Positions 42,564 through 63,538 of a stretch of 64,000 bases of DNA are shown here, piece after piece (the first letter of the stretch is position 1; each line of letters begins with the position of its first letter). The stretch covers positions 1 through 64,000 of the forward strand of contig JABDKX010000007.1 of NCBI GenBank assembly GCA_013001975.1. The letters run 5' to 3'. This stretch comes from Saprospiraceae bacterium. Its GTDB lineage: Bacteria; Bacteroidota; Bacteroidia; Chitinophagales; Saprospiraceae. The translations under genes were made by a program, and so were the position numbers. The notes beneath the pieces were generated by a model. That model saw only the letters and a program-made list of their open reading frames with translations, was not told where the DNA came from and did no database searches.

Positions 42564-43949
42564 ATGAAAAGCAATCGACTTCTTTGGTTAGCAGCCACTA
42601 TTATTATCATAATCGCACTTTATTTCTTTTTTAGGTCAGACAAAGCGCAAGATCTGACATCTATCACGACCTTAGTAGAAAAGGGCCCTTTTCAAATTTC
42701 AGTTGTCGCAACCGGAGAGCTGGAGGCAAAACGATCCAAAAAAATACTCGGTCCAAGCACAATGCAATCTGCTCAAATTTATGAAACAACAATCCAAAGA
42801 ATGATCCCTGAAGGATCCTCTGTTTCAGAAGGAGACTTTGTCGCACAATTGGATAAAACAGAAATCGCAAATAGAATGTCTGACATACAAGTTGAAGTTG
42901 ATAAAATAAATACTCAGTTAGATCAAGCCAAAATCGACACCACAATTGAGATGAGAAGCTTGAGGGACCAAATGAACAATATCAAATTCTCATTAGAAGA
43001 AACCAAGCTTCAAGTTGAATTAAACAGATATGAGCCACAAGCAGTGATAAGGCAGAAAAACATTGAGTACGAAAAAACACAAAGAGAGTTTGAGCAAATA
43101 AGAGTTAAGCTAGGCTTAACAGAGGAAAAGAATTATGCTAAAATTCAAGAGATAAAGGCGACCTTAAAACAACAGCAGAAAAAAATGAAAAGGCTACAAG
43201 ACCTTTCAAAAGAATTTACCATAAAGGCGCCCGCAGATGGCATGTTAATTTATTCAAGAACATGGAATGGCAAGGTGACAACTGGCTCGAGAGTTCGAGC
43301 ATGGAATCCAGTGGTCGCAGAGCTTCCAGATCTGTCGGAAATGATTTCTAAAACCTATGTAAACGAAGTAGATATAAGTAAGATTAGTGTAGGTCAAGAT
43401 GCTATTATAAATGTAGATGCTTTTCCAGATAAATCATATACAGGAACAATTACACAGGTAGCCAATATTGGAGAACAACTGCGAGACTATGATACAAAAG
43501 TTTTTGAAGTACTCATTTCTGTAAATGAGCACGACTCAATTTTAAGACCAGCCATGACAACAGGGATAGAAGTATTGGTTAATAACTTTGACTCCATTTG
43601 CTATATACCTATTGAAGCGATTTTTGTAGATTCTGTAGAATATGTCTATAAGAAGCAAAAGAAAAACATTGTAAAACAAGAGGTTGTCAAAGGGTTAAGC
43701 AACGAAACAGACATACTCATATTAAGTGGACTAGTAGAAGGAGAAAAAATACTATTAAACAAACCGGAAAATGAGGAATCATTAAGGTTTGAATATGTTC
43801 CTAAAGAAAAAGCGGATCTTGCAATAAAAGCATTTCAAAGAGAAAAAGACAAACTTCAAGCAGAATTGTTAGAAAAGAAAAGGAAAGTCAAAGATGACAT
43901 AGAAAGGCCAAAAGAAGGCTCAAGCTCATTTTTTACAATTAGGTTTTAA
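42564..43949 (+). CDS. Periplasmic adaptor (HlyD/MacA-like membrane-fusion protein)
   Basis: The 461-residue protein has an N-terminal membrane anchor (7-22, 'LWLAATIIIIIALYFFF'), a split biotinyl-lipoyl motif, a long coiled-coil hairpin (about 90-215, rich in Glu, Gln and Lys) and a beta-barrel domain ('TYVNEVDISKISVGQDAIINVDAFPDKSYTGTITQVANIGE'). It bridges an inner-membrane exporter and a TolC channel. It shares one base with the permease gene and leads the three-gene efflux set. The C-terminal 50 residues form an extra charged helix. Confidence 0.88.
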   Translation: MKSNRLLWLAATIIIIIALYFFFRSDKAQDLTSITTLVEKGPFQISVVATGELEAKRSKKILGPSTMQSAQIYETTIQRMIPEGSSVSEGDFVAQLDKTEIANRMSDIQVEVDKINTQLDQAKIDTTIEMRSLRDQMNNIKFSLEETKLQVELNRYEPQAVIRQKNIEYEKTQREFEQIRVKLGLTEEKNYAKIQEIKATLKQQQKKMKRLQDLSKEFTIKAPADGMLIYSRTWNGKVTTGSRVRAWNPVVAELPDLSEMISKTYVNEVDISKISVGQDAIINVDAFPDKSYTGTITQVANIGEQLRDYDTKVFEVLISVNEHDSILRPAMTTGIEVLVNNFDSICYIPIEAIFVDSVEYVYKKQKKNIVKQEVVKGLSNETDILILSGLVEGEKILLNKPENEESLRFEYVPKEKADLAIKAFQREKDKLQAELLEKKRKVKDDIERPKEGSSSFFTIRF

Positions 43950-53563: not shown

Positions 53564-54088
53564 ATGAAAAGCACGATTATAAAAGCCGTTTTTGCGCTAG
53601 CCATTGGATATTCAGGGTATTATTTTTTACTCAGGTCTCCAAGTAGTACAAAAGGAAAACTAGCACCGGACTTTGAATCACAACTGATAGATGGAAGTAA
53701 ATTTAATCTAAGCAGTTTAAAAGGTAATTATGTTCTATTAGACTTTTGGGGTTCTTGGTGCCCACCATGTAGAAGGGACAACCCGAATTTGGTAAAGCTT
53801 CATAATCAGTTTTATAATGAATCATTCAAGGATGCAAATAACTTTCATATAGTAACTGTAGCCTTAGAGAAAAATGATAAAACATGGAAAAAAGCAGCAG
53901 ACAGAGATGGATTTAAATGGGAGCACCAAATAGTTGAGCAAGCAAAGGTTGTGTTGTTGTCCCCATTAGCTCAAAAATATGCTGTAAAAGACATTCCTGC
54001 TAAGTTTTTAATCGACCCAGATGGCAATATAGTAGGCGTAAACCAACCTTATTCTGAAATTAAGGCTTATTTACAATCAAAAATTTAA
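53564..54088 (+). CDS. TlpA/ResA-like membrane-anchored thioredoxin
   Basis: The 174-residue protein starts with one hydrophobic helix (7-23, uncleaved anchor or signal). A thioredoxin domain follows with the active site Trp-Cys66-Pro-Pro-Cys69 ('DFWGSWCPPCRRDNPNLVKLH') and the cis-Pro region 'VKDIPAKFLIDPDGNIVGVN'. It should reduce disulfides on the periplasmic side, for example in cytochrome c maturation or protein folding. It is probably monocistronic; the stress element for grpE starts 8 bp after its stop. Confidence 0.9.
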   Translation: MKSTIIKAVFALAIGYSGYYFLLRSPSSTKGKLAPDFESQLIDGSKFNLSSLKGNYVLLDFWGSWCPPCRRDNPNLVKLHNQFYNESFKDANNFHIVTVALEKNDKTWKKAADRDGFKWEHQIVEQAKVVLLSPLAQKYAVKDIPAKFLIDPDGNIVGVNQPYSEIKAYLQSKI

Positions 54089-54095
54089 TTTTGTC

Positions 54096-54135
54096 TGCCA
54101 AAATGGCTGTAAATAAAGCGTGGCAAAGGAATTGA
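54096..54135 (+). promoter_or_regulatory. Composite stress-type promoter of grpE-dnaJ (inverted repeat plus -24/-12-like box)
   Basis: TGCCA-AAA-TGGCT (54096-54108) is followed by TGGCAAAGGAATTGAT (54121-54136), in which GG and GA are 10 bp apart like the -24/-12 pair of a sigma-54 promoter. The distance from the repeat centre (54102) to GG (54122) is 20 bp. The same arrangement and spacing appears before secA at 60097-60136. The -12-like box is about 23 bp from the grpE ATG. Confidence 0.55.
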
Positions 54136-54157
54136 TTGATTAAAAGAAAAGTTTTAA

Positions 54158-54685
54158 ATGGCAGATACAAATAAAGCTGAAGAAAAAATGAAAGCTAAGG
54201 TGAAGTCGAAAAAAAGTAAGGGCAAAAAAGTTGATAAACAGGTTGAAGAATTAACCCAGCAGCTTGAAGAAGCAAGAGATAAACATTTGAGATTGTTTGC
54301 TGAGTTCGAAAACTTTAAGAAAAGAAACTCTCGTGAAAGGCTTGACCTATTAAAAAATGCTGCTCAGGATACGATGAGCGCCATTCTTCCAATTTTAGAT
54401 GACTTCGATAGAGCAAAGAAAGCTGCAGAAGACGAAAAAACAGAAGAACAACTTAGTGAGGGTGTTTTAATGGTCTATAACAAGTTATATTCTGTGTTAG
54501 GAAACAAAGGCCTTAAACCGATGGTTTCTACTGGAGAAGTATTTGATCCAGAAGTACATGAAGCCATAACAGAAATACCCGCGCCATCAGAAGACTTAAA
54601 AGGTAAAGTTGTCGACACTGTAGAAAAAGGATATTACCTAAATGATAAGATAATACGATTCGCAAAAGTTGTAGTAGGGAAATAG
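54158..54685 (+). CDS. grpE: Nucleotide exchange factor GrpE
   Basis: GrpE releases ADP from DnaK. The 175-residue protein has a Lys-rich head, a long coiled-coil (30-75, 'QVEELTQQLEEARDKHLRLFAEFENFKKRNSRER') and the C-terminal beta-wing ('GLKPMVSTGEVFDPEVHEAI', 'GYYLNDKIIRFAKVVVGK'). It is 19 bp upstream of dnaJ; dnaK is not in the window. Confidence 0.96.
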   Translation: MADTNKAEEKMKAKVKSKKSKGKKVDKQVEELTQQLEEARDKHLRLFAEFENFKKRNSRERLDLLKNAAQDTMSAILPILDDFDRAKKAAEDEKTEEQLSEGVLMVYNKLYSVLGNKGLKPMVSTGEVFDPEVHEAITEIPAPSEDLKGKVVDTVEKGYYLNDKIIRFAKVVVGK

Positions 54686-54704: not shown

Positions 54705-55865
54705 ATGGCAAAAAGAGATTATTACGAAATTTTAGGTGTTTCCAAAACAGCAGATGCAAAGGAGATTAAAAAGGCGTATCGAAAAGTCGCAATAAAATAT
54801 CATCCAGATAAAAACCCTGACGATAAATCAGCAGAAGAGAAATTTAAGGAGGCAGCTGAAGCTTACGAAGTTTTAAGTGATGAAAATAAGAGAGCCAGAT
54901 ACGACAGGTTTGGACACGCAGGTGTTGATGGACAAAGTGGTTTTGGCGGAAGAGGAGGTATGACCATGGATGATATATTTTCCAATTTCAGTGATATTTT
55001 TGGAGATTCTGGCAGTCCTTTTGAAAGCTTTTTTGGTGGGCAAACAAGAAGTTCAGGTCGAAGACGAGGGCAGAAAGGCTCAAACCTACGAATCAAAGTC
55101 TCTTTAACATTAGAAGAAATAGCAAAAGGTGTTACCAAAAAAATAAAAGTCAAAAAACAAGGTAAGTGTGAAACTTGTAGCGGGTCTGGAGCTAAAGACA
55201 GCTCTTCTGTTCAAAGCTGTGGGACATGTGGAGGCTCTGGATATGTAAGACAAGTGAAATCTACTTTTCTAGGACAAATGCAAACAACCACCGTTTGTCC
55301 AGGTTGTAATGGTTCAGGACAACAAATAACATCAAAATGCACATCCTGCAAAGGTGAAGGAAGAAAACTTACAGACGAAACAATTGAGATAGACATACCT
55401 GCAGGTGTAGAAGAAGGCATGCAATTGTCAATGAGAGGAAAAGGGAACGCCGGGAAAGCTTCTGGTCCCGCAGGAGACCTCTTGATAATGATTGAAGAAA
55501 AAAAACACAAATACTTTTCTAGAGATGGTCAAAACATAATGTATGACCTGTTTTTGAATTTTGCTGATTCTGCATTAGGCACATCTGTTGAAGTTCCAAC
55601 ACTAGATAAAGCAGTAAAAATTACAATTCCTCCAGGAACACCAGCCGGGAAAATATTTAGACTAAGATCTAAAGGCCTACCTTCAGTACAAGGCTATAGT
55701 GGCAAAGGAGACCAACTTATCAATGTTAATATTTGGACGCCCAAAAAACTAAGTCCAGAAGAAAAAGAGGTGTTGGAAAAAATGAGAGAAATGCCAGGTT
55801 TTAAACCGAAAGAAGGCAGTGATCAAAAAGGATTTTTCGCGCGAATGAAAGACTTCTTTGAATAA
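54705..55865 (+). CDS. dnaJ: Chaperone DnaJ (type I)
   Basis: DnaJ delivers unfolded clients to DnaK and stimulates its ATPase. The 386 residues show the complete type I layout: J domain with HPD ('YHPDKNP', 1-70), a Gly/Phe-rich linker (75-110), four zinc motifs [24 protein letters not shown] and CTSCKGEG (150-215), and the C-terminal substrate domains. It follows grpE in the same transcript. The gldH gene begins 56 bp later. Confidence 0.97.
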
Positions 55866-60096: not shown

Positions 60097-60136
60097 TGCC
60101 AAATTGGCATAATAGGCAAGTTGGTACAATATCTGA
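60097..60136 (+). promoter_or_regulatory. Composite stress-type promoter of secA, matching that of grpE
   Basis: TGCCA-AAT-TGGCA (60097-60109) is a perfect inverted repeat. TTGGTACAATATCTGAT (60121-60137) follows, with GG (60123-60124) and GA (60135-60136) 10 bp apart. Repeat centre to GG is 20 bp, exactly as upstream of grpE. A vegetative-like TATCTTCG (60201-60208) also lies closer to the secA start, so secA may have two promoters. Confidence 0.5.
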
Positions 60137-60232
60137 TCGTAATTATCGAAATTTAGACTGCAATTTTGAAGAATGGAAGGCATTTGGTAAAATGAATAGT
60201 TATCTTCGCAAAGCAAATTAAGAAAAGAGTAT

Positions 60233-63200
60233 ATGCTAAAAGTATTAAAGAAGTTTTTTGGGACAAAGTACGATAAGGATGTTAAAACAATTATGCCTTA
60301 TGTCGATCAAATAAATGCTTTGTATGAAGAGTATCAAGACATAAGCAATGACGCTCTTAGAAATAAAACTTTAGAATTTAAACAAAGGATCCAAGAACAC
60401 CTTCAAGCTATTGACGATGAAATCGCTAAAACGGAAGCGGCCTCTAATGCAGAAACAGACTTGTCTTTAAAAGAAGATTATTATAGAGAAATTGATGATT
60501 TAAAGAAAGATAGAGATGAGGAGTTAGAAGTCGTATTAATGGAAATTCTTCCAGAAGCTTTTGCCGTTGTTAAAGCAACAGCCAAAAGATTTACCGAAAA
60601 CATAACCATAGAAGTATCGGCAACAGATCATGATAAAGAGATAGCGGCAAAACATGACTATGTGACGATTGAAGGAAATAAAGCTGTTTGGAAAAACTCA
60701 TGGATGGCAGCAGGAGGAGAGATCACTTGGAATATGGTTCATTACGATGTTCAATTAATTGGTGGTTTCGTATTACACTCTGGAAAAATTGCAGAAATGC
60801 AAACAGGTGAAGGTAAAACCTTAGTTGCGACTTTGCCTGCATACCTAAATGGAATTACAGGTCAAGGAGTCCACGTCATTACGGTTAACGATTATTTAGC
60901 AAGAAGGGATTCAGAATGGATTGGTCCTATCTTTGAGTTTTTATTTTTAACAGTTGACTGTATTGATAAATATAAGCCCCATTCACCTGAAAGGGTGGCC
61001 GCTTATAAGTGTGACATTACTTACGGAACAAACAATGAATTTGGTTTTGACTACCTGAGAGATAATATGGTCCGCTCAGAAGCAGAAAAGGTTCAAGGGA
61101 AGCACCATTTTGCAATGATAGATGAGGTCGACTCTGTCTTGATTGATGATGCAAGAACGCCACTAATCATTTCGGGTCCAGTTCCTGCGGGAACAGAAGA
61201 GCAAGAGTATCAGGTATTAAAGCCAAAAGTAGAACGCCTCATGTCTGCGCAGAAAAAAATGGCTACGGAATACTTAGCAACAGCAAAAAGGTTGTTTAAG
61301 GAAGGAAATACTGGATTTAATGAAGGTGATGCAGGGTTAGCACTTTTAAGAGCTTACAGGTCTCTTCCCAAGTATCGACCACTCATTAAATTTTTGAGTG
61401 AAGATGGTGTTAAGGCTGTTCTTCAAAAGGCTGAAAACTACTACATGCAAGAGCAAAATAAAAACATGCACTTAGTAGATGAACCACTTCTTTTTACGAT
61501 TGATGAAAAAAACAGAAATGTTGAACTGACGGAATATGGTTCTGAATATCTTTCAAAAGGAGAAAATGATATTAAGTTTTTCGTGATGCCAGATATTGCG
61601 AGTGAGATGCAAGCTCTTGAGGAACAAGCTAAAGAAACAGGTGAGGACTTAAGTGAAGCCAAAGCAAATTTGATCCAAGATTTCTCAATAAAGTCGAGAA
61701 GGTTGCATGCTGTTAGTCAACTGCTAAAAGCCTATACTCTTTTCGAAAAAGAGGAGGAGTATGTAGTAATTGATGGGCAGGTAAAAATTGTAGACGAACA
61801 AACAGGTCGGATGATGGAAGGACGACGATATTCAGACGGTCTACATCAGGCTTTAGAGGCAAAAGAAAATGTAAAGGTTGGAGATATTACACAAACGTAT
61901 GCGACCATTACGTTACAGAACTATTTTAGAATGTTTCACAAGCTATCCGGAATGACGGGTACTGCCGAAACAGAAGCAGGAGAGTTTTGGGAAATATATA
62001 AGTTAGATGTAGTAGTAATTCCAACAAACAGACCCATTGTTAGAGATGACAGAGAGGACTTGGTTTATAAAACTGACAGAGAAAAGTTCAATGCCGTTAT
62101 AGAAGAGATATACAATCTTACGGGTCAAGGAAGGCCCGTCCTAGTTGGTACAACAACTGTGGACATTTCTGAAAAACTAAGTAGAATGCTTAACCTTAGA
62201 GGTATTAAGCACAATGTTCTTAATGCAAAACAACATCAACGAGAAGCTGAAATCGTAACCTTAGCAGGAAAACCATCGGCAGTTACCATAGCTACAAACA
62301 TGGCAGGTAGAGGAACCGATATTAAGTTGTCAGATGAAGTTAAAAAAGCAGGAGGCCTTGCCATTGTTGCAACGGAAAGACATGATTCACGAAGGGTAGA
62401 CAGACAACTAAGAGGACGTGCAGGCCGTCAAGGAGATCCAGGGTCGTCTCAGTTCTATGTTTCATTAGAAGATAAGCTAATGAGACTTTTTAATTCTGAT
62501 AGAATTGTAAAGGTGATGGATAAAATGGGTCACGAAGAAGGCGAAGTGATCCAACACTCAATGATTACAAAGTCAATAGAAAGGGCGCAGAAAAAAGTAG
62601 AAGAAAACAACTTTGGCATTAGAAAAAGATTGCTTGAATATGATGATGTCATGAATATTCAAAGGTCTGCCATTTATAATAAAAGAAACAATGCATTGTC
62701 GGGAGACAGGCTTTCAGTTGACTTATATAACATGATAATGTCGTTGACAGAAAGCTTGATTGAAGATCACAAAAGAGTCGGTGACTATAATACATTTAAA
62801 AATGACTGCTTAAGAGTCCTTTCAATGGAACCCTCTATTGATGAAGTTACTTTTATTGAAGGACAAGAAGGAGAACTGATCGAAATGTTTCAAAACCAAG
62901 TGCTAGCACAATACAAAGAGAAGACAGAAAAAATAGCCGAAGTTTTGTTGCCAGTGATTTCTAATGTTTATGAAAATGAAGGACATCGTTACAGGCGGAT
63001 CTCTGTTCCATATGTAAGCCCATCAAGAGAAACACCGTTGCCAATTGCAGCAGAGCTAAAAGAAGCTGTTGAGACGAAGGGAGAATCAATAATGAAAGAT
63101 ATTGAAAAAGCCGTTACCTTGGTTTTGATTGATGAGAATTGGAAAGAGCATTTAAGATCAATGGATGAGTTGAAAGATTCCGTTCAGTCAGCATCTTTTG

Positions 63201-63538
63201 AGCAAAAAGATCCATTGGTTATTTATAAAATGGAAGCATATACTGCCTTTGAACAACTCGTTTACAGAATAAACTATGATGTTATTTCGTATTTAATGGG
63301 AGGAAAGCTGTTGTTAGGCAGACCTGAAGATGTAAGAGAAGCTAAATCTAACAGAACAGACTTTAGAAAGGTAAGAACCAATAAAGATGCAGCCGCAAGA
63401 AAAAGAGCAGCCGCTTCAGCAGGAAGAGGAGAAAGGGCAAAACCGGAAACTTTTAAAAGGACTGAAAAGAAAGTCAAAAGAAATGATCCCTGCCCATGTG
63501 GAAGTGGTAAAAAATATAAACAATGCCATGGCGCTTAA
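60233..63538 (+). CDS. secA: Preprotein translocase ATPase SecA
   Basis: SecA drives preproteins through SecYEG. The 1101-residue protein is longer than E. coli SecA (901) because of insertions in the first nucleotide-binding and preprotein regions, as usual in Bacteroidota. Walker A is '[17 protein letters not shown]' near residue 190. Further landmarks are 'FDYLRDNM', DEVD in '[21 protein letters not shown]', '[16 protein letters not shown]', '[11 protein letters not shown]' and '[24 protein letters not shown]'. The C-terminal zinc SEC-C motif is '[18 protein letters not shown]', which binds SecB or ribosomes. Confidence 0.98.

Follow-up and report, generated by a model that had tools for sequence, protein, structure and literature searches.

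A conserved palindrome and sigma-54-type promoter element before grpE-dnaJ and other proteostasis genes of Bacteroidia, and a candidate activator

The window, a stretch of 64,000 nucleotides from a Saprospiraceae bacterium (contig JABDKX010000007.1), carries grpE on the forward strand (54158..54685, ATG at 54158; Pfam GrpE, E 1.3e-40), followed on the same strand by dnaJ (54705..55865; Pfam DnaJ domains), which is presumably cotranscribed with it. A composite element lies upstream of grpE, and a thioredoxin-like gene (53564-54088; Pfam) is found on its other flank. On the forward strand the element consists of a palindromic operator, TGCCA-AAA-TGGC (54096..54107; general form TGNCA-W3-TGNC), a 13-bp spacer (54108..54120), and the -24 box TGGCA (54121..54125) and -12 box TTGAT (54132..54136) of a sigma-54-type promoter. 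Sigma-54 geometry predicts a transcription start at 54147 if 54135 is taken as -12, with the centre of the operator at about -45. An earlier note on this DNA had placed the inverted repeat at 54096-54108. The repeat is present, but it ends at 54107 and the T at 54108 does not extend it. The two distances given in the note were correct when measured again: GG (54122-54123) and GA (54134-54135) are 10 bp apart, and the centre of the repeat (54102) is 20 bp from GG.

In the window alone, neither the palindrome nor a loose form of the composite exceeds chance. TGNCA-N3-TGNCA occurs twice (in a copy before secA and at 43268) against 0.89 expected, a number reached in 20 of 100 shuffles, and the grpE copy misses this strict pattern by its last base. 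With up to three mismatches the composite occurs three times against 1.36 expected (reached in 13 of 100 shuffles). The element is certain because of the comparison across genomes, not because of window statistics. The composite used for searching was 39 bp long with a spacer of 13; of its 15 fixed bases, seven belong to the palindrome and the other eight to the boxes. The 4.2-Mb genome to which the window belongs has three exact copies, all 5' of chaperone genes, and no exact control match; with up to two mismatches it has eight matches against two in the control. In the family, 129 exact matches were found in 98 of 150 genomes (own genome included) and none was found with the reversed pattern, which rules out a chance origin. 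The other 52 genomes have no exact composite, partly because other spacers occur. In a sample of the phylum (296 genomes), 36 genomes contained the composite, all of them from the class of the window, and the control gave none. This sequence conservation indicates that the composite is a real, strongly conserved promoter element of Bacteroidia proteostasis genes.

A search for grpE in 60 genomes, own included, gave matches in 57, and 30 loci were read (own and 29 relatives). In all 30 a -24/-12 pair comes after TGNCA-N3-TGNC. From operator to -24 box the spacer is 13 bp in 24 loci, 14 bp in five and 12 bp in one; its length is fixed within 12-14 bp, and its sequence is variable and partly A/T-rich. 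Spacer bases are likewise mostly unconstrained in the grpE and htpG sites of the family, where the three-base core of the palindrome is all A/T in 73 of 80 grpE sites and in 29 of 29 htpG sites.

The three exact composites of the own genome (spacer 13) precede grpE, htpG and hsp20-degP, the last being hsp20 followed by a DegP-type protease (Pfam). In the family set, 125 of 129 exact composites precede grpE, htpG, hsp20 or clpB. Reading of 119 sites gave 80 grpE, 29 htpG, three hsp20, three clpB and four sites without an assigned gene, one of which has just 109 bases left in its stretch; the remaining 10 coincide with grpE coordinates from the grpE search. A stricter pattern was used for a scan of named genomes, which gave at least 119 stretches, with five cores common to the family set. 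Among the matches listed, BLAST assigned 72 to grpE, 15 to htpG, six to hsp20, five to clpB and two to groES, N-termini read by eye gave four dnaK, two lon and five trxA, and eight had no gene label (five of these with at most 211 bases left). One product each of dnaK, lon, trxA, clpB and htpG was confirmed by Pfam, as was one protein for each of the other labels. The 80 titles among the matches listed are all Bacteroidota by name, including Flavobacteriaceae, Saprospiraceae, Bacteroidales, Pedobacter and Alistipes; Candidatus Scybalousia among them is placed in Bacteroidales. The occurrence of the composite 5' of the thioredoxin gene trxA (L238, L244, L283, L293 and L297) ties the regulon to thiol stress.

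The earlier note had proposed a proteostasis regulon in this lineage, with matches expected at dnaK, groES, clpB, htpG and lon. All five have exact or degenerate copies, but for clpB and lon these come from other genomes. A model of the composite gave no match at the own ClpB-like loci (L079-L082) or in the stretch L087, and the own lon was not located. The exact composite is not scattered in coding DNA and is enriched before chaperone genes. The regulon is supported by these data, and its site is not limited to the lineage named in the note but spans the class Bacteroidia.

The model, which is sequence-only and was built from 49 composites, was used to rank sites of the own genome. The three exact sites came at the top, dnaK ranked fourth with 17.1 bits, groES sixth with 15.6 and secA 11th with 12.9, and the Hsp70, Cpn10 and SecA products downstream were confirmed by Pfam. 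The other lower matches inspected are probably noise, since none lies 5' of a recognised chaperone gene and several fall within long ORFs. The degenerate composite before secA (60097..60137, forward strand) reads TGCCA-AAT-TGGCA (60097-60109) and then TGGTA-N6-CTGAT, with two mismatches, and precedes the secA ORF on the same strand (60233..63538, ATG at 60233; Pfam SecA domains). The second copy of the layout that the note had described here does exist at 60097, but in a weaker, degenerate form. A site of this type occurs in five of 21 secA loci (own included), all five among the 12 loci of the window's genus; four of them have boxes of the form TGGTA-N6-(C/A)TG, and the fifth has TGGCA-N6-TAG. 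At groES, the -12 box is NTG in place of TTG in all nine near loci, six have at spacer 13 a proximal palindrome that is half-degenerate by a single base, and a perfect palindrome lies farther upstream in seven. Among seven more distant groES loci, four have a perfect distal palindrome and one more is ambiguous. L084:4597-4760 and the groES upstream regions of L088-L094 share this arrangement (distal perfect, proximal mostly half-degenerate, NTG) as a conserved second promoter architecture.

HrcA was found in none of 60 genomes, by a search whose control was positive in seven of 14 known genomes. This agrees with the regulon without HrcA that had been proposed. The own genome has six PF00158 matches, of which two, EBP_A and EBP_B, are strong. 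EBP_B (C112) has an intact GAFTGA motif, an AAA+ domain from residue 13 and a Fis-type HTH_8 domain at 382-417 (Pfam). Most NtrC-family members, PspF excepted, carry an N-terminal receiver or sensor domain, and Pfam found no receiver or other sensor domain in EBP_B. No other sigma-54 activator with an HTH was found in the own genome, although a further one could be missed in this draft assembly, which is 98.6% complete. EBP_A (C182; L077:1081-2355) has a receiver and an AAA+ domain without HTH (Pfam). Its C-terminus stops before the HTH in all three other genus members read (L102, L103 and L104), and its GAFTGA motif reads GSFTSA in three of four genus members. Orthologs in two other families keep the HTH (Pfam for one). 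Lacking the HTH in this genus, EBP_A is disfavoured as a binder of the palindrome, and it may act from solution.

The gene order around EBP_B is miaB-EBP_B-lptE-hypothetical-secG-groES-groEL, with LptE, SecG, GroES and GroEL confirmed by Pfam, and much of the class shares this cluster. groESL lies 3' of EBP_B in the own genome, in eight of 14 relatives and in seven of 20 more distant loci, although some of these stretches end early; the gap in L447 is about 2 kb. The hypothetical gene in the lptE/secG interval (L084:5030-5986) is lysine-rich and recurs in the EBP_B clusters of many relatives, with a short conserved region only. An ortholog-grade match to EBP_B was defined by E <= 1e-85, because the next matches begin at 9.5e-73, and was present in 116 of 119 class genomes (own included), the exceptions being G515, G522 and G554. 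G515 and G554 contain the composite and their best EBP_B matches have E values of 3.6e-61 and 1.2e-62; the lack of an ortholog-grade match is perhaps due to contig breaks, or else to loss or replacement of the gene. Under strict filters 38 of the 119 class genomes gave no match to the composite model at E<=0.01, and 37 of these 38 have EBP_B. In the HTH, S406 and R408-I414 are invariant in 32 of 32 aligned sequences. Short alignments had raised the suspicion that loss of the HTH was coupled to loss of the motif; this was rejected, since gene reading found the HTH in all 20 of the more distant loci fetched.

The AlphaFold2 model of EBP_B (mean pLDDT 82.4, pTM 0.60) contains the AAA+ domain, an isolated helix (277-308) and the HTH, and no further folded domain. 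Residues 317-374 have pLDDT < 50, and this linker is probably disordered, as judged from the model. The helix at 277-308 (EREILYKFLFEMKNDLNDLKKLV; L078) is conserved, lies between the AAA+ lid and the linker, and is a possible docking point for a regulator. The relatives of EBP_B with solved structures include NtrC-family proteins, ZraR, LuxO and PspF, and NCBIfam gives it no name, as no match shown reaches its cut-off. PspF is a sigma-54 activator that starts directly with the AAA+ domain, ends in an HTH, serves a stress regulon and is controlled by PspA. EBP_B resembles it in its AAA+ start and HTH end, but does not reach the cut-offs set for PspF in NCBIfam (258 against 444 bits and 201 against 529) and differs in having the conserved extra helix 277-308 and the low-confidence, probably disordered linker.

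Sigma-54 promoters have GG at -25/-24, G at -13 and 10 bp from GG to a GC-type dinucleotide. This arrangement was found exactly, as TGGCA-N6-TTG, in 27 of 30 grpE loci, and one base off in three (L021, L033 and L037). The canonical -12 box is TTGC, with C at -12. Following TTG, the 80 family grpE sites have A in 57, C in 17, T in six and G in none, and this predominance of A, together with the NTG boxes at groES, might suggest that a different sigma factor, such as an ECF factor, reads the boxes and that their likeness to sigma-54 boxes is superficial. However, the spacing of GG to G is the sigma-54 spacing, and all four Flavobacterium-titled loci among the matches listed carry the composite before grpE with TGGCA-N6-TTGC (the pattern allowed A or C). 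In addition, start sites in Flavobacterium psychrophilum have been mapped before groES, lon, dnaK, grpE, htpG and clpB, and passages of that paper assign them to the -24/-12 motif SM4 of sigma-54 (Guerin et al. 2021, PMC9723704). Use of another sigma factor is very improbable in our judgement. The earlier reading of a sigma-54-like promoter under a dimer site is supported by the GG-to-G spacing, and from the sequence we infer that the grpE composite uses sigma-54. Upstream activator sites of sigma-54 activators are palindromes of about 13-17 bp with an A/T core that fit an HTH dimer, and the palindrome here has this size and form. Sites of sigma-54 activators usually lie about 80 bp or more upstream and act by DNA looping. 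The main site here is centred at about -45 in all 30 grpE loci, and distal copies are confined to groES and a few other genes; the -45 position is unusually close for a sigma-54 activator and is a reason for caution.

The earlier note had left a choice between a repressor and an activator dimer. If the palindrome were a repressor operator, an HrcA-like dimer beside the sigma-54-type promoter would leave on stress, and another activator would work elsewhere or in solution. The position of the palindrome directly 5' of the polymerase footprint, at a fixed spacer of 12-14 bp, would suit such a repressor, and EBP_A of this genus could be the activator in solution. The distal copies do not fit this reading well. 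Simple steric repression is improbable from the extra palindromes, which are 42-106 bp upstream, and at groES it is the distal copy that is kept perfect while the proximal one is half-degenerate. Sixteen groES loci (nine near and seven distant) were read for phasing, and the 11 perfect palindromes used lie 44, 55, 65, 73, 73, 74, 75, 76, 76, 76 and 87 bp from the -24 box. An overlapping palindrome at L088 (95 bp) and the ambiguous promoter of L449 were left out, one of two candidate -24 boxes was used at L444, and L096, L097, L442 and L447 have no perfect palindrome. Among 232 composite promoters (238 before removal of exact repeats; 86 stretches have only 100 bases upstream), 13 extra perfect palindromes occur in 34 kb against five in 56 kb of control DNA; of the 13, three are at 5 bp and two are at 21 bp. 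At a period of 10.5 the Rayleigh test gave p 0.041 for all 13 and 0.0095 for the eight beyond 30 bp, a cut chosen after the data had been seen. The combined set beyond 30 bp has a phase of 2.1 at period 10.5 against 2.5 for the proximal site (R 0.73, n=19; one of 20000 permutations); these 19 come from related genomes and are non-independent, and they do not include the five extra copies that lie at 5 or 21 bp. Because an activator that touches the polymerase needs helical phase and a repressor does not, the phasing of the distal copies favours an activator, and we consider a repressor unlikely. Of the two options in the note, the activator is thus favoured, by inference from this phasing. The palindrome could also be an activator site with a binder other than EBP_B, such as HTH-bearing EBP_A orthologs, another activator or an unrelated factor that aids sigma-54 polymerase. 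The motif in G515 and G554, which have no ortholog-grade EBP_B, and the presence of more than two strong PF00158 matches in several genomes are consistent with this. In contrast, the motif is intact in the own genome and the three further genus members in which EBP_A has no HTH, the neighbours of EBP_B include the target groESL, and across the class one meets again both the HTH of EBP_B and the motif. There is accordingly little probability that another protein is the binder.

We consider it likely that grpE-dnaJ has at 54096-54136 a sigma-54-type promoter core with a single activator site, and that throughout the regulon this site is bound most likely by EBP_B. The palindrome TGNCA-W3-TGNCA, whose position about 20 bp 5' of the -24 GG is fixed, would bind EBP_B, and an EBP_B oligomer at this site would remodel the neighbouring sigma-54 RNA polymerase. 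EBP_B would in this way switch on grpE-dnaJ, htpG, hsp20-degP, dnaK and groESL, and in relatives also clpB, lon and trxA. As EBP_B lacks an input domain, the stress signal would have to arrive in trans. That this signal is heat is an assumption based on the gene set, and the published passages found do not mention heat; our guess is that chaperone titration conveys the signal, with feedback through groESL. More tentatively, class Bacteroidia might control core proteostasis through one sensorless activator, docked beside the promoter without a DNA loop and set in trans by free chaperone, possibly at helix 277-308, with groESL in its own cluster closing the feedback; we regard this wider scheme as possible rather than probable.

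The CIRCE/HrcA and RpoH systems of heat-shock control act on the same target genes, and the composite differs from them in both operator and promoter. The SM4 promoters of F. psychrophilum are closer, with the same phylum, the same genes (groES, lon, dnaK, grpE-dnaJ, htpG and clpB) and the same -24/-12 boxes, but their description, in the passages on these promoters, mentions neither a palindrome at -45 nor an assigned activator (PMC9723704), whereas an operator and a candidate activator are given here. The word stem 'palindrom' does not occur in the main paper. It suggests that co-expression clusters might reflect distinct activators among three PF00158 proteins. One of its tables lists THC0290_0733 and 0732, a probable sigma-54 regulator and LptE, at a distance of three to four locus tags from groES-groEL (0729 and 0728). 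From the order of the locus tags we infer that this regulator is EBP_B. According to passages of a survey of computed sigma-54 regulons, a chaperone cluster is found in Bacteroidota and Planctomycetota and is enriched in Bacteroidota (PMC12316311). That survey likewise has sigma-54 promoters at grpE, dnaJ, dnaK, groES, groEL and ibpA homologs, but its passages on them give no operator, fixed spacing or cognate activator, unlike the present analysis. In word searches of two Bacteroides thetaiotaomicron papers, neither rpoN nor groEL occurred in PMC12596196, and none of rpoN, groES and grpE occurred in PMC7366714. The LuxO site of the Vibrio qrr genes, TTGCAWWWTGCAA, is, in the excerpt describing it, likewise a 13-bp palindrome of 5-3-5 form with a W3 core, and LuxO, of the same NtrC family, binds it through its HTH domain (PMC10162802). 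The LuxO sites are reported in part of another article to lie about 100 bp upstream (PMC11407668) whereas the main site here is at -45, and LuxO is described in a further excerpt as having a receiver domain (PMC4878744), which EBP_B lacks.

Transcription of Bacteroidota chaperone genes by sigma-54 is already published. The contribution here is therefore the operator, its fixed position, its class-wide reach and the candidate activator, which are new as far as the literature searched shows; no report of the operator, fixed position or activator was found in that literature, which covered few subscription journals and no supplements. The same literature gave no answer to how chaperones are controlled without HrcA in Bacteroidota, which are major gut and environmental bacteria. 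If the proposed reading is true, a core stress regulon would, unusually, be run by sigma-54, and the activator would be docked beside the polymerase at a fixed site and not at a remote enhancer. The specificity of the composite is sufficient for the prediction of chaperone promoters in much of Bacteroidia.

EBP_B with its HTH is kept, adjoining miaB, even in the 0.49-Mb reduced Bacteroidia genome G494 (L441:9055-10263). It is perhaps the only sigma-54 activator of this genome, as it is the sole match of the EBP_B search at E <= 1e-60. The 19 kb read around EBP_B in G494 contain one weak match to the composite model (11.6 bits).
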